From positions 388,875 through 423,487 of the forward strand of contig LFLA01000021.1 in NCBI GenBank assembly GCA_001542995.1: 34,613 nucleotides of DNA, read 5' to 3'. Shown one piece after another: positions 2,262 to 15,200 of the stretch. A model generated the notes under the pieces. The model saw only the letters and a program-made list of their open reading frames with translations, was not told the DNA's origin and ran no database searches. A program made the position numbers and the translations under genes. Each line of letters opens with the position of its first letter. Within the stretch, counting starts at the first letter, position 1. The stretch is from Nitrospina sp. LS_NOB. GTDB taxonomy: Bacteria > Nitrospinota > Nitrospinia > Nitrospinales > VA-1.

Positions 2262-3020
2262 TTATTGCACCCGGGCGCGGATTTTTGCGCTCAGGGTGTC
2301 GAGCGTAATCACCACAATGGCGATGGCGAGTAACGCCGTCCCCGCTTCGTTGTATTTGAGAAGATTGATCCATTGCTGCAGCAAAAATCCAATCCCTCCT
2401 CCCCCGACAAACCCGATAATGGTCGACATACGCACATTAATATCCCAGCGATAAAAACTGAGTGCCAGAAACGGCAGAATCACCTGCGGCAACACACCAA
2501 AAAAAACCACCTGCAACGGTCTGGCACCCACAGCGGTGATCGCCTCCACCGGCCCCGGATCAATACACTCTATCTGTTCCGAAAATAATTTCCCTAAAGC
2601 CGCGACAGAATGCAGCCCCAATGCCAGCACCCCGGCAAAAGGACCAATGCCCACCCAGACCACAAACAGGATCGCCATGATCAACGGCTCGATGGATCGC
2701 AAAACATTCAAACCGGTTCGCACACCATAATAGACAAAGGTACCCATCCGGTTCCGGGTCATGAGGTTGCGGGCCCCGAGAAAACCTAAAGGTAGCGCCA
2801 CCAGCACGCCAAAAGTAGTCGCCATCAACGCCAGAAAAACCGTTTCCATCATCTTCTCAATGGTCAGGCTCAAAGTTTCGCTGACCTGCCAGCCGCCCTC
2901 CTCCCGACTCAACACGGCCTTCACGGTCTGGCGCGACCGCGCGCGCTGGGCGGCACAATGATCTCTTTCTGGAACGCGCCGGACACATCGGTGGTAAACG
3001 TTCCTAGCGGGAACTCCTGC
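2262..3020 (-). pseudogene. phnE: phnE-type phosphonate ABC permease remnant
   Basis: The intact stretch (2262-2924, GTG start possible) encodes about 220 residues matching the C-terminal permease domain of PhnE: TVFLALMATTFGVLVALPLG, then FLGARNLM, then the EAA-like loop EAITAVGARPLQVVFFGVLP, and the closing VRMSTIIGFVGGGGIGF. In the family this is the membrane subunit of a phosphonate or phosphite importer. Upstream, another frame reads EQEFPLGTFTTDVSGAFQKE and IIVPPSARG, then stops at 2921-2923. This looks like the extracytoplasmic segment that leads into VKAVLSREEGGW, so a one-base frameshift lies near 2925-2955. Nothing of the N-terminal membrane segment remains; homology ends at about 3020, against the next gene. 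No phnC or phnD is nearby, so it is probably non-functional. Confidence 0.7.
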
Positions 3021-11574: not shown

Positions 11575-11738
11575 TAAACCGGTTTGGCTCATCGCGTTGC
11601 GCCGGGTCGGCGAAGAGGAACATTGTCGAGGTTGCCGGCATAGGTCAAAGCGTTAAGAATCATCCAGGTAGAGTGCCTCTACAGGCTATAGCAATGGCTT
11701 TTTTTACCCCTCCGTGGCCACCACGCGAAGTACCCGTG

Positions 11739-11872
11739 CCGGGCATGAAGTTTAAGGAAGAGGACATCACAGCTACGGAAGAATATCACGTCCGCTTGCA
11801 CAGCAGGTTGTTTCTCGGCACAAAGGGGTAAAATGACCCCTCTTTGTCAAAGAGGGGCTGGGGCGATTGACC
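11739..11872. repeat. Repeat segment (family E) followed by family C hairpin
   Basis: The gap 11575-11898 has no supported gene. At 11742-11770 it holds GGGCATGAAGTTTAAGGAAG plus AGGACATCAC, repeated at 15109-15137. At 11835-11872 it holds ACCCCTCTTTGTCAAAGAGG followed by GGCTGGGGCGATTGACC, a hairpin plus tail that recurs at 13596-13632 and 33735-33774. The last could act as a terminator for transcription from either side, but it lacks a clear T-run. Confidence 0.5.
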
Positions 11873-11898: not shown

Positions 11899-12564
11899 TT
11901 AAGGAGTCATTTCAACTAACTTTTTGATGGTTTTTTCAATGCCTTCAGCCACTTCCGAGATGCTCTGGCCTGTCATATAGGCCGGGGTCGAGACGATTTT
12001 GTTCTCCGCATCCAGCACAAAATCAGTGGTGGCGCATTCCTGATGTTTGCTGCCCATCATTTCGATCTTGCCGCTGGTTTCCTTGTCGTTGCCAATGGTC
12101 AAGACCGGTTTGGCCGGTTCACTTTCATAGATTTTTGCCATCATGGCAGGAGCAATGCACAACACCGCCTGCGGTTTTTGTTTGGCGGCAAACTCCTTCA
12201 CCAGCCGCATCACTTCCGGGTGGACCTCGCAGTTTTCGCCTTTGACCGCGAAGCTGGAGAGATTTTTTGCCGCGCCGAATCCACCGGGGAACACTAAAGC
12301 GTCAATATCATCCGCTTTGACTGTAGCGATATCTTTGATCTCGCCCCGGGCAATGCGTGCCGCTTCGACGAGGACATTACGTTTTTCTCCGGCAGTCTCT
12401 TCGCCAGTAAGATGGTTGACCACATGCATCTGATCGACATTGGGGGCCATGCACACCGCCTGGGCTCCAGCCCGGTCGATCGCTAAAAGAGTGATGACCG
12501 ACTCGTGGATCTCCGCACCGTCATACACCCCACACCCCGAAAGCACCACACCAATCTTTTTCAT
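11899..12564 (-). CDS. elbB: ElbB-like glyoxalase (DJ-1/PfpI superfamily)
   Basis: 221 residues, starting MKKIGVVLSGCGVYDGAEIH with ES, the characteristic ElbB N-terminus. The body includes NVLVEAARIARGEIKDI, then ALVFPGGFGAAKNLSSFA and KPQAVLCIAPAMMAKI with the conserved nucleophile-elbow Cys. In E. coli ElbB is a class I glutamine-amidotransferase-like protein, reported as a glyoxalase and linked to isoprenoid synthesis. The start is an ATG right after an AGAGAGG-like site (TCTAGAGAGGTTATATT on the coding strand). Its first 70 bp are repeated upstream at 13381-13450, on the far side of the toxin-antitoxin pair. This gene is complete. Confidence 0.9.
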   Translation of the reverse strand: MKKIGVVLSGCGVYDGAEIHESVITLLAIDRAGAQAVCMAPNVDQMHVVNHLTGEETAGEKRNVLVEAARIARGEIKDIATVKADDIDALVFPGGFGAAKNLSSFAVKGENCEVHPEVMRLVKEFAAKQKPQAVLCIAPAMMAKIYESEPAKPVLTIGNDKETSGKIEMMGSKHQECATTDFVLDAENKIVSTPAYMTGQSISEVAEGIEKTIKKLVEMTP

Positions 12565-12592
12565 AATATAACCTCTCTAGAAAAAATGGATC

Positions 12593-12922
12593 TTAGGCCA
12601 TGACGACATCTTGAAAGGATTCCCCTTTTCTTCGTCGTGTGACCTGCACCGTTATCTTTCGATCCAGATTATTTAAAAACCCGAACAGCCGTTCCTGGGA
12701 AAACAGCGTATAGCGCCCGTTCATCAGGTTCGATACTTCCGGCTGTTTAATATTCAGAAGCTTGCCAATCTCGCGTTGCTTGAGCTTTTTCTTTTCAAGG
12801 ATCATCCGCACAGAATGGCCGAGTTTGGCGCGTGTTAAAAGTTCTTCCGATTCATCAAGTCCCAAATCGGCAAACACATTGCCCGAACTTTCTGCAAAAG
12901 TTATTTTTTCATTTTTCTTCAT
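12593..12922 (-). CDS. XRE-type antitoxin (HigA-like)
   Basis: 109 residues. The central helix-turn-helix reads KKLKQREIGKLLNIKQPEVS then NLMNGRYTLFSQERLF, typical of XRE/HigA antitoxins. The C-terminus NLDRKITVQVTRRR is the usual short strand after the HTH in this group. The N-terminal 25 residues (FAESSGNVFADLGLDESEEL) match the leader often seen in these antitoxins. Its ATG overlaps the toxin's stop (ATGA, 12919-12922), so the pair is translationally coupled with the toxin first. It is expected to neutralise the toxin and repress the operon, probably at the palindrome 13296-13313. Confidence 0.87.
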   Translation of the reverse strand: MKKNEKITFAESSGNVFADLGLDESEELLTRAKLGHSVRMILEKKKLKQREIGKLLNIKQPEVSNLMNGRYTLFSQERLFGFLNNLDRKITVQVTRRRKGESFQDVVMA

Positions 12923-13293
12923 AAATCTTTCTCCCTTTCTATGGCAACAGCTTCCTTGTAACGCCGTTCAATCATCTCCATATCAAGTTTGGCTGTTTTT
13001 CGGCCTTGCGGTGCTTTCTTCTGGAGGGCATGGAGAACATAAACACGTTTGCCAATCTGCACCGCATAAACCGTTCGGTAGGTATCGGTATCAAAGCGGG
13101 TGACGATTTCCAGAACCCCGCTGGCCACACCCTTAAGCGGTTTGGCTTGTGGTGGTTTGATCCCTTTTTGCACATCAAAAAGTGCCGCTCCAATATCCTG
13201 CCTCACTTTCGGTGGAAACAATTGCACCCGCTTGCGCACATCTCCAACCCACACCACCGGCTTTACGCTATCCTCGTCCATACCACTTGTCAT
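12919..13293 (-). CDS. HigB-like/Gp49-family RelE-fold toxin
   Basis: 124 residues; the second Met (13281, MDEDSVKPVVWVGD) may be the true start because the first ATG sits almost on the upstream palindrome. The sequence KPVVWVGDVRKRVQLFPPKV, GAALFDVQKG, AKPLKGVASGVLEIVTRFD, TYRTVYAVQIGKRVYVLHAL and QKKAPQGRKT is the phage-derived Gp49-like/HigB layout. Family members cut mRNA on the ribosome. The basic C-terminal part with the FQKK-like element (here LQKK) and Arg/Tyr residues are retained, so it looks active. The module is flanked by two copies of the elbB 5' end. Confidence 0.86.
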   Translation of the reverse strand: MTSGMDEDSVKPVVWVGDVRKRVQLFPPKVRQDIGAALFDVQKGIKPPQAKPLKGVASGVLEIVTRFDTDTYRTVYAVQIGKRVYVLHALQKKAPQGRKTAKLDMEMIERRYKEAVAIEREKDL

Positions 13294-13295
13294 GA

Positions 13296-13313
13296 TATAA
13301 GTAGTTACTTATA
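13296..13313. promoter_or_regulatory. 18-bp palindrome, likely toxin-antitoxin operator
   Basis: TATAAGTAGTTACTTATA is an 8+2+8 perfect inverted repeat, immediately upstream of the toxin start region. Its position and symmetry fit autorepression by the dimeric HTH antitoxin. If the toxin starts at 13293 there is no room for a ribosome-binding site, which favours the start at 13281. Confidence 0.65.
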
Positions 13314-13380
13314 AACGCAAGAGATTTATTTTGCTTTTACGGGAAGGCTGGCAGAGGTATATCGAAGGGTGAGAAGTTGG

Positions 13381-13450
13381 TGACCGACTCGTGGATCTCC
13401 GCACCGTCATACACCCCGCAACCCGAAAGCACCACACCAATCTTTTTCAT
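13381..13450 (-). pseudogene. elbB: Duplicate 5' fragment of elbB
   Basis: These 70 bp match 12495-12564, the first 23 codons of elbB, at 68 of 70 positions. The two differences fall in adjacent Gly and Cys codons (GGG/GGT, TGT/TGC) and are both synonymous. Similarity stops sharply after the codons for HESV; the frame then runs 14 more codons to a TAA. The fragment keeps a start codon and could be translated as a 37-residue peptide, but it cannot be functional ElbB. It marks the far edge of the inserted toxin-antitoxin segment. Confidence 0.88.
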
Positions 13451-13766
13451 GATTATTTCCCCCAGAAAAATAAAAACAGAGATTAGTTTTTGATTAAATT
13501 TTCACCTGATTTTACCACCCCTGCAATACAGTGGGGAAATGTTTTAACCACAGATGGACACAGGTAAACACAGATTTTAGAGAAAAAAGGTTTTAGCCCC
13601 CCTCTTTTTAAAGAGGGTTGGGGTGATTGACCACCAGTTAGGCTCAATTGTCGAAGGGCAAAACCGTGATTCATTATCCTTTCATTCCCTAAGCCAATCC
13701 AGTAAAATCCGAATTCGGAAGCAGAATTCATGGTGTGATTAAAAGAGACTTATTGGCGGAAAAATT
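13451..13766. other. Intergenic stretch with family C hairpin
   Basis: There are 316 bases without a supported gene. They contain ACCACAGATGGACACAGG then TAAACACAGATTTT near 13549-13578, and the family C hairpin CCCCCTCTTTTTAAAGAGGG with its TTGGGGTGATTGACC tail at 13597-13632. The original elbB promoter may lie just above 13450, but no strong consensus is visible on that strand. Confidence 0.4.
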
Positions 13767-14622
13767 ATGGCTGTCCCAAAATATGATGATTTGTTCAACC
13801 CTCTTCTAAGAGCAATGCACAGTCTAGGTGGTTCCGCTTCGATCTCAGAGCAAGAAGACAATGTAGCATCAATATTAAACCTGTCCGAAAAAGAAATAGC
13901 GGAAATACATAAAGGTAATCGCACAAAATTGAGTTACCGGTTGGCATGGGCAAGAAACTACCTCAAACGATTTGGAGTCCTTTACAATTCTCAAAGGGGA
14001 GTTTGGGCACTTACATCAAAAGGTCAAAAAAAGGTCAAAAAACCAAAAAAGTTAATAAGACTGATAATAAGACTGAAGTGAACCAATTTGTGAACAGCTT
14101 CGACAAAAAAGAGGAGAAAAAGAAAAAAGAAATACTAAAAGACGAGGAAAGTTCAGCCTGGGAAAATGAATTGCTTGACCTGATAAAAACTCTAACGCCA
14201 GATGCATTTGAGCGGTTATGTCAAAGAATCCTCAGGGAGTCTGGGTTTACACGCATGTTGAGGTCACAGGACGTTCTGGAGATGGCGGAATAGACGGAAA
14301 GGGTGTAGTCCGAATTGGTGGCCTTCTTTCTTTTCATATGATTTTTCAATGCAAACGCTGGCAAGGAAGTGTCCAATCTTCCGTAATTCGCGATTTTCGT
14401 GGGGCTATGGTTGGACGGACGGATAAAGGCTTATTAATTACAACGGGGACATTCACCAAAGGTGCCCGAGCAGAAGCCCAACGGGACGGTGCCCCACCCA
14501 TAGACCTGGTAGATGGCGAAACGCTGGTCAATAAATTAAAGGATTTAAGCTTAGGAGTGGAAATAAAAGAAAAAGTCGTCCAAGAAATTATACTAGATAA
14601 AGAATTTTTTAATGGGATATAA
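13767..14622 (+). pseudogene. mrr: Mrr-type restriction endonuclease, two frameshifts
   Basis: Three overlapping plus frames make one Mrr protein of about 285 residues. Frame one, from ATG 13767, gives MAVPKYDDLFNPLLRAMHSL to RLAWARNYLKRFGVLYNSQR with GVWALTSKG, the Mrr N-terminal winged-helix domain. Frame two continues NQFVNSFDKKEE and WENELLDLIKTLTPDAFERL with CQRILRESGFT. Frame three carries HVEVTGRSGDGGIDGKG, FQCKRW and GALLITTGTFTKGA-like sequence (GLLITTGTFTKGARAEAQRD). The PD-(D/E)xK residues (Asp of GGIDG and the QCK Lys) survive. The first shift lies in an A-rich tract near 14020-14050. The second, near 14247-14253, looks like a duplicated AC. Mrr cleaves methylated DNA; this copy should be inactive. 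Confidence 0.85.
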
Positions 14623-14638
14623 AAATCAACCGCGCACC

Positions 14639-14797
14639 TAACCGTCGTCGCGAGCCGCTGGAAGCGGCGTGGCGATCCAGACTTTATAATTAATTTCCTT
14701 CCTGGGTTTACCCTTTCTGGGCACGAAGGCAAATGAGAAAATATCACAGCTTCGCCATCTCTTTTCTGGATTGCTTCGCTCCGCTCGCAACGACGAT
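14639..14797. repeat. Family A inverted-repeat element next to GIY-YIG gene
   Basis: The left arm near 14641-14681 (GTCGTCGCGAGCCGCTGGAA... GATCCAGAC) and right arm near 14760-14797 (TCTGGATTGCTTCGCTCC... AACGACGATC) are inverted copies of the family A arm, enclosing about 80 bp. The enclosed and right-hand part (14697-14797) is repeated directly at 15085-15197, beyond the GIY-YIG gene. Confidence 0.6.
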
Positions 14798-15084
14798 CAG
14801 AGGATGTCATCATGAAGATCGTTCCAGTTCGGATTCATGTTTTCTATCAACGCGATTTTTTTCTTTCTTGAACCCGCCTTAATTTGTTTTTCACGACTGA
14901 TAGCACTGTCCATGTTTTCATGAGTTTCGTAATAGACTAATTGATTACAACCATATTTCCTTGCAAAACCTGCTACGACTCCATTTCTGTGCTCATGAAC
15001 CCGTTTCACCAAATTGCTGGTCACTCCGGTATAAAGGGTTCCATTCCGTTTATTCGTCATTATGTAGATCACGGGTCGTTTCAT
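14797..15084 (-). CDS. Small GIY-YIG nuclease-family protein
   Basis: 95 residues that are essentially one GIY-YIG domain: VIYIMTNKRNGTLYTGVTSN with Tyr7 and Tyr18 (YTG for YIG), LVKRVHEHRNG with Arg28, and AISREKQIKAGSRKKK with Glu65 as the likely metal ligand. The closing NPNWNDLHDDIL is typical of the UvrC-like, stand-alone YhbQ/URI group. Such proteins are presumed nucleases, mostly without a known role. This one is not in an operon. It is bracketed by direct repeats of about 100 bp (14697-14797 and 15085-15197), so its stop lies at the edge of one repeat and its start at the edge of the other. Confidence 0.92.
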   Translation of the reverse strand: MKRPVIYIMTNKRNGTLYTGVTSNLVKRVHEHRNGVVAGFARKYGCNQLVYYETHENMDSAISREKQIKAGSRKKKIALIENMNPNWNDLHDDIL

Positions 15085-15200
15085 TTTCTTCTGGATTTAC
15101 CCTTTCAGGGCATGAAGTTTAAGGAAGAGGACATCACAAATATCACGGCTTCGTCACCTCTTTTCTGGATTGCTTCGCTCCGCTCGCAACGACGGCTACT
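15085..15200. repeat. Second copy of the repeat flanking the GIY-YIG gene
   Basis: It contains GATTTACCCTTTCAGGGCAT, the family E segment, ATCACGGCTTCGTCACCTC and then the family A arm TTTTCTGGATTGCTTCGCTC and CGCTCGCAACGACG. The same order is seen at 14703-14797. The family E segment is also at 11742-11770. Confidence 0.6.

Follow-up and report, generated by a model that had tools for sequence, protein, structure and literature searches.

We analysed a stretch of 34,613 nucleotides from Nitrospina sp. LS_NOB (here called the window, meaning that whole stretch), in which a small toxin-antitoxin (TA) module of HigBA type stands between an intact elbB gene and a second copy of the start of that gene. 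The source genome (G000; 2.65 Mb in 26 contigs, 98.8% complete) was compared with Nitrospinaceae and Nitrospinota metagenome-assembled genomes, all species-level representatives, of which 46 make up the family set and 15 the same-genus set; individual relatives are cited by handles such as G006. The locus is made up of the following features:

11899 to 12564, minus strand: elbB, intact, 221 amino acids (NCBIfam PRK11780.1, equivalog, 336.7 bits).
12495 to 12564, minus strand: proximal repeat copy, the opening 70 bp of the intact gene (68/70 identities with 13381 to 13450).
12565 to 12592, minus strand: leader of the intact elbB, separating the stop of higA from the ATG of elbB; non-native, resembling the higA-elbB spacer of G006.
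12593 to 12922, minus strand: higA-like antitoxin gene, HTH_37, 109 amino acids (PF13744, 76.3 bits; 94% identical in G006).
12919 to 13293, minus strand: higB-like toxin gene, Gp49 family, 124 amino acids (PF05973; 84% identical in G006).
13296 to 13313: palindrome TATAAGTAACTACTTATA upstream of higB, likely the antitoxin operator, to judge from similar palindromes in relatives.
13314 to 13380: filler of about 67 bp that separates the stub from the TA module, including the presumed TA promoter beside the operator.
13381 to 13450, minus strand: distal repeat copy, read here as the displaced native 5' end of elbB (the stub; 68/70 identity), preceded by the native leader.
13451 to 13530, minus strand: native elbB leader and promoter region, ggggtggtaaaat...aaaactaatctctgtttttatttttctgggggaaataatc, which aligns with the leaders of G003, G012, G002, G013, G008 and G015.

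The gene at 11899-12564 is a genuine, full-length elbB, whose orthologues within the genus are 74-92% identical. Judged from its genes, the bracketed pair is an intact Gp49/HTH_37 module of HigBA type, an assignment that rests on the toxin family (68 bits in PF05973, cut-off 23.9) and on the adjacent helix-turn-helix (HTH) antitoxin; the toxin gene comes first and the antitoxin gene directly after it, with a 4-nt overlap. PDB searches with the antitoxin returned HTH relatives only, and those with the toxin returned no relative. Near-identical palindromes of the TATAAGTAATTACTTATAT type stand upstream of higB in G006, G028 and G035, and the palindrome at 13296-13313 is therefore likely to act as the antitoxin operator. 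The bracketed segment carries no transposase or integrase gene. The filler has no other copy within its own genome; about 13335-13366 it resembles a PCYCGC gene of G030 (28/32 match, E 1.2e-4), which may hint, if only weakly, at the donor context. No significant RNA structure was predicted across stub and filler (z -0.99), and scans of 11.8-13.8 kb for sigma-70 promoters and terminators stayed at chance level and are uninformative as to elbB transcription.

The first 70 bp of elbB (12564-12495, minus strand) are repeated at 13450-13381, 886 bp away, with 68 of 70 positions identical, and the match can be extended to 12492-12567 and 13378-13453 with 72/76 identities. The two base differences within the 70 bp are both synonymous (Gly10 GGG/GGT and Cys11 TGT/TGC), and the stub reads on into a dead-end open reading frame (ORF) of 37 amino acids (13337-13450). 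The initial annotation, which was made from the letters of the window alone, had given these coordinates and this identity and had called both differences synonymous third positions; the repeat comparison bears it out in each respect. When 250-bp flanks around a 700-bp gap were scored for such brackets, the elbB locus reached 132, against a median of 17 at 3000 control positions, only two of which scored 30 or more; a chance origin of the repeat is thereby excluded. The control pool included loci of the same TA family, so that this background is, if anything, too high.

An assembly error or a mixture of strains might also join two elbB alleles in this way, in a genome of many contigs in which the two leaders are of two types. 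We consider this extremely improbable, since the locus is internal to a 423-kb contig, the contamination estimate is 0.44 and the arrangement recurs on a 1.6-Mb contig of another genome (G028, below); the artefact that the initial annotation had named as able to overturn its reading is thus unlikely.

To decide which of the two elbB starts is native, we aligned the 43 nt before each ATG, with scores given out of 43. The leader of the stub scores between 20.5 and 34 against six native leaders from module-free relatives, with which it has the stretch aaaactaatctctgtttttattttt in common, whereas the leader of the intact gene scores at most 2.5 against the same six. The latter instead resembles the higA-elbB junction of G006, with a score of 19 that no shuffled sequence reached (0/2000), although these 43 nt take in about 12 nt of higA; restricted to its last 26 nt, the comparison still gives 8.0 with G006, as against 2.0 with the stub. 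Set against each other, the two elbB leaders score -0.5, though the coding parts of the two copies are 97% alike. From the genus-typical leader before it, we take the stub to be the old native start of elbB, and from the non-native leader and its likeness to that of the TA-bearing G006, we take the start of the intact gene to have come with the module. The case for displacement at elbB rests mainly on these leaders, as the coding differences are only two.

The site is found uninterrupted in relatives. In nine genomes (G002, G004, G005, G011, G015, G020, G030, G033 and G036) nadE is followed by elbB across a spacer of 126-250 bp that holds neither TA module nor stub, and on this comparison the TA-free nadE-elbB arrangement is the pre-insertion state. 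Among the 15 same-genus genomes, G006 alone carries this close module, and has it at this same site, in the order nadE-higB-higA-elbB and with no stub. There the module sits inside the elbB leader: the native promoter runs as far as 'caaaactaat' and is followed by the module start 'ttcttgc..tataagtaattacttatat', while at the right-hand joint the antitoxin stop is followed by 'gaacc' and then 'atttttg..atg'. The right-hand joint of the window is of the same kind, with 'gatcc' and then 'attttttc'. At 4-fold degenerate sites, G000 and G006 are identical at 0.60 for both higB and higA, 0.65 for elbB and 0.62 for nadE, so that the divergence of the TA genes relative to core genes gives no sign of recent transfer between these two, and the linkage of TA module and elbB may date back to the species split.

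Several other observations concern this neighbourhood. A GIY-YIG ORF follows nadE at 14797-15084 (minus strand), a remnant of the same ORF follows nadE in G013 (L039), and other small ORFs lie in the nadE-elbB spacer of G003 and G013; by its content, this spacer gives the impression of a minor hotspot for insertions. In G010 (L040), elbB is found downstream of lon instead of nadE; its leader is similar to the TA-linked type (gacccatttttgatgaggag), but there is no TA module, and this elbB may have been relocated and may once have carried the module.

The TA subfamily recurs at other genes. With close members defined by a HigA at least 83% identical, five loci were found in the 46 family genomes (the window, G006, G028:C1, G028:C11 and G035), and three of them are bracketed (the window, G028:C1 and G035), as against 2/3000 control positions. 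No brackets were found at G006 or G028:C11, nor at more distant members with usable flanks. In G028:C1, the TA module follows the stop of uvrB, and 79 bp past the antitoxin gene stands a second copy of the final 123 bp of uvrB, 88.6% identical; an accessory ORF follows this uvrB stub. In G060, uvrB is followed directly by the same accessory ORF (91.6% over 1.44 kb), which represents the empty site. The G035 locus is a weaker case, with a 26-bp repeat (24 matches) whose copies lie 34 bp ahead of the TA pair and 86 bp past it; the site adjoins htrA, and relatives have no TA module after the same htrA gene.

The initial annotation had proposed looking for a pre-insertion state with one elbB and no module, and the nine uninterrupted genomes supply it. 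The repeated uvrB end in G028 bears the same signature as the elbB repeat, with more differences. The initial annotation had also argued from the synonymous changes that the fragment came from a working allele, a reasoning that at elbB concerns two sites only and finds better support at uvrB. The two uvrB ends differ by 14 nt, and 12 codons differ, ten of them synonymously. Of the codon states unique to the stub, six of seven are synonymous, where about 29% would be expected for unselected change. The uvrB stub thus diverged mostly within a working gene, and it represents a different allele and not a duplicate produced when the module inserted.

These data bear on the possibility of a long target duplication, in which the module would have entered elbB as a mobile unit and left some 75-100 bp of the target in two copies. 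The occurrence of one TA subfamily at several distinct insertion sites would fit such a unit, as would the finding that each elbB start matches the other more closely than it matches any relative. A fresh duplication, however, predicts copies that are identical, leader included, whereas the elbB leaders do not align and the uvrB copies carry the mostly synonymous differences just described; moreover, the segment between the brackets has no transposase or integrase gene with which to move. We therefore regard insertion with long target duplication as unlikely. Fresh duplication, whether in tandem or of the target, is disfavoured by the leader and synonymous-site evidence alike.

With fair confidence, we propose that the module entered joined to the elbB start of a donor, by homologous exchange within elbB at one end and an illegitimate joint at the other. 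A HigBA-type module would already have been joined to an elbB start in a related Nitrospinaceae donor, as it is in G006; a donor fragment would have entered the lineage, by RecA-dependent uptake such as transformation, and paired with the recipient's elbB. Homologous recombination inside elbB would have resolved one end, and the other would have been attached, by an illegitimate joint, at position 70 of the elbB that the recipient already had. The outcome would read native promoter, old elbB stub, filler, higB, higA and a complete elbB with a module-borne start. One event per locus would suffice, which makes this the simplest route, and the outer end of the recipient's gene would stay behind as a stub on its native flank. 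The initial annotation had offered two origins for the arrangement: its second, a recombination that displaced an older allele and left its 5' end, is the one that the leaders favour, with the module arriving already joined to another elbB start. As it now stands, elbB is likely to be transcribed from the TA transcript, from the old promoter or from both, and the 70-bp copies could recombine with each other and so excise the module, restoring the native leader and a full elbB in frame.

Several points weigh against this proposal. The identity of elbB to its relatives along the gene gives no clean breakpoint, in a set that holds no conspecific module-free genome. The two elbB starts, with their two differences, are nearer to each other than to any relative, and as mutual closest matches they would imply that the donor was a very close strain or that the copies are of recent common origin. 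The left joint, presumed to be illegitimate, passes from nucleotide 70 of elbB into filler for which the genome offers no other copy. Finally, there are only five close TA loci, two of which (G006 and G028:C11) are without brackets. A stub with the native leader, together with a complete second elbB, would also result if a merodiploid, formed by tandem duplication or single-crossover integration, had carried two full elbB genes around the TA module and all but 70 bp of the upstream one had later been deleted; merodiploids are reported from pneumococcal transformation (PMC3784515). Such a route needs an extra deletion, and a like trimming twice, at elbB and at uvrB, and the filler holds no further elbB remnants; we judge it quite improbable.

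If displacement by exchange within the gene is the correct reading, we may tentatively generalize it. This TA subfamily could spread without transposase or integrase on the ends of housekeeping genes, settling beside such an end and moving between strains or species by recombination anchored there, each time replacing the end and leaving a stub; the published long target duplications of restriction-modification (RM) systems could reflect this very process. The mobility of stand-alone chromosomal TA modules is an open question, to which these loci offer a concrete and testable answer: the pattern at elbB and uvrB suggests how 'addiction' genes can move without a transposase. The gene stub records the displaced allele, and leader and synonymous differences together separate displacement from duplication at insertion, a test that can be applied to published RM cases too.

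Other parts of the window and of the comparison set are recorded here for completeness. An Mrr-type restriction endonuclease gene at 13767-14622 (plus strand) is split, with Mrr_N at 13767-14081 and the Mrr catalytic domain at 14218-14622 in a different frame, and by this layout looks broken. Dispersed intergenic repeats, 93-95% identical (11731-11771 with 15098-15138, and 14739-14795 with 15138-15194), bracket the whole elbB-TA-mrr region, and a similar element occurs in G009 (L218). In G028 (L054), the accessory ORF downstream of the uvrB stub (MELARILEDSDEV...) is followed by a small HTH gene, and the two may be another mobile small module. The source genome has a second, distant HigBA-like pair (G000:C7:60983-61628; 45% and 42% identical) with no bracketing repeats. 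Outside the phylum, six of 42 genomes surveyed gave distant matches to the TA module, the best at 48%. Plasmid relatives reach 63% at best, in Stanieria, yet the bracketed segment is without an integrase gene. A phage origin, with two weak matches, is unsupported.

Among known systems, the module itself, a predicted TA pair, compares with type II TA systems of the HigBA (Gp49-HTH_37) kind, with which it has in common the toxin-first order, the 4-nt overlap, the Gp49 toxin, the HTH antitoxin and the palindrome before the toxin gene; it differs in being a rare subfamily, with five close loci in 46 family genomes. For its surroundings, the elbB locus looks like a TA variant of a known insertion pattern, the long target duplication of RM systems, which was reportedly described by Nobusato et al. 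in 2000 and Furuta et al. in 2010. The likeness lies in a selfish module, direct repeats of the target gene of about 100 bp, an empty site in relatives and the absence of a transposase: the repeats measure 76 bp at elbB and 123 bp at uvrB, and the uninterrupted site occurs in nine genomes and in G060, respectively. The insert here is, however, a TA pair and not an RM system, and the repeats are not copies of one allele, as the leaders and the 14 nt at uvrB indicate, which points to displacement. For RM systems, the duplications of the target that accompany insertion are reportedly 'in the order of 100 bp' (PMC3874152; PMC1643837), and a review that covers TA and RM systems together gives long target duplication for RM systems; we found no TA example in the literature searched, which left out most subscription journals. 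In Helicobacter pylori, a PabI-family duplication likewise sandwiches an insert, for which a homologous junction and a non-homologous one are inferred in that study (PMC4615327), but there the insert is a 50-kb integrative and conjugative element and the duplication 1577 bp, compared with less than 1 kb and 70-123 bp here. Homology-facilitated illegitimate recombination is known from transformation, with one homologous and one illegitimate junction, the latter usually at 3-10 bp of microhomology (PMC3240628), and a similar route has been proposed for the arrays left by effector displacement in the type VI secretion system of Vibrio cholerae (PMC5361080). Our loci differ from those arrays in carrying a TA module next to housekeeping genes (elbB and uvrB) and not an effector swapped within one toxin locus, and in that the anchoring crossover is one that we infer; on the proposed reading they would resemble them, with homology anchoring one side of the incoming module, an illegitimate joint at its other side, and a piece of the old gene left beyond.
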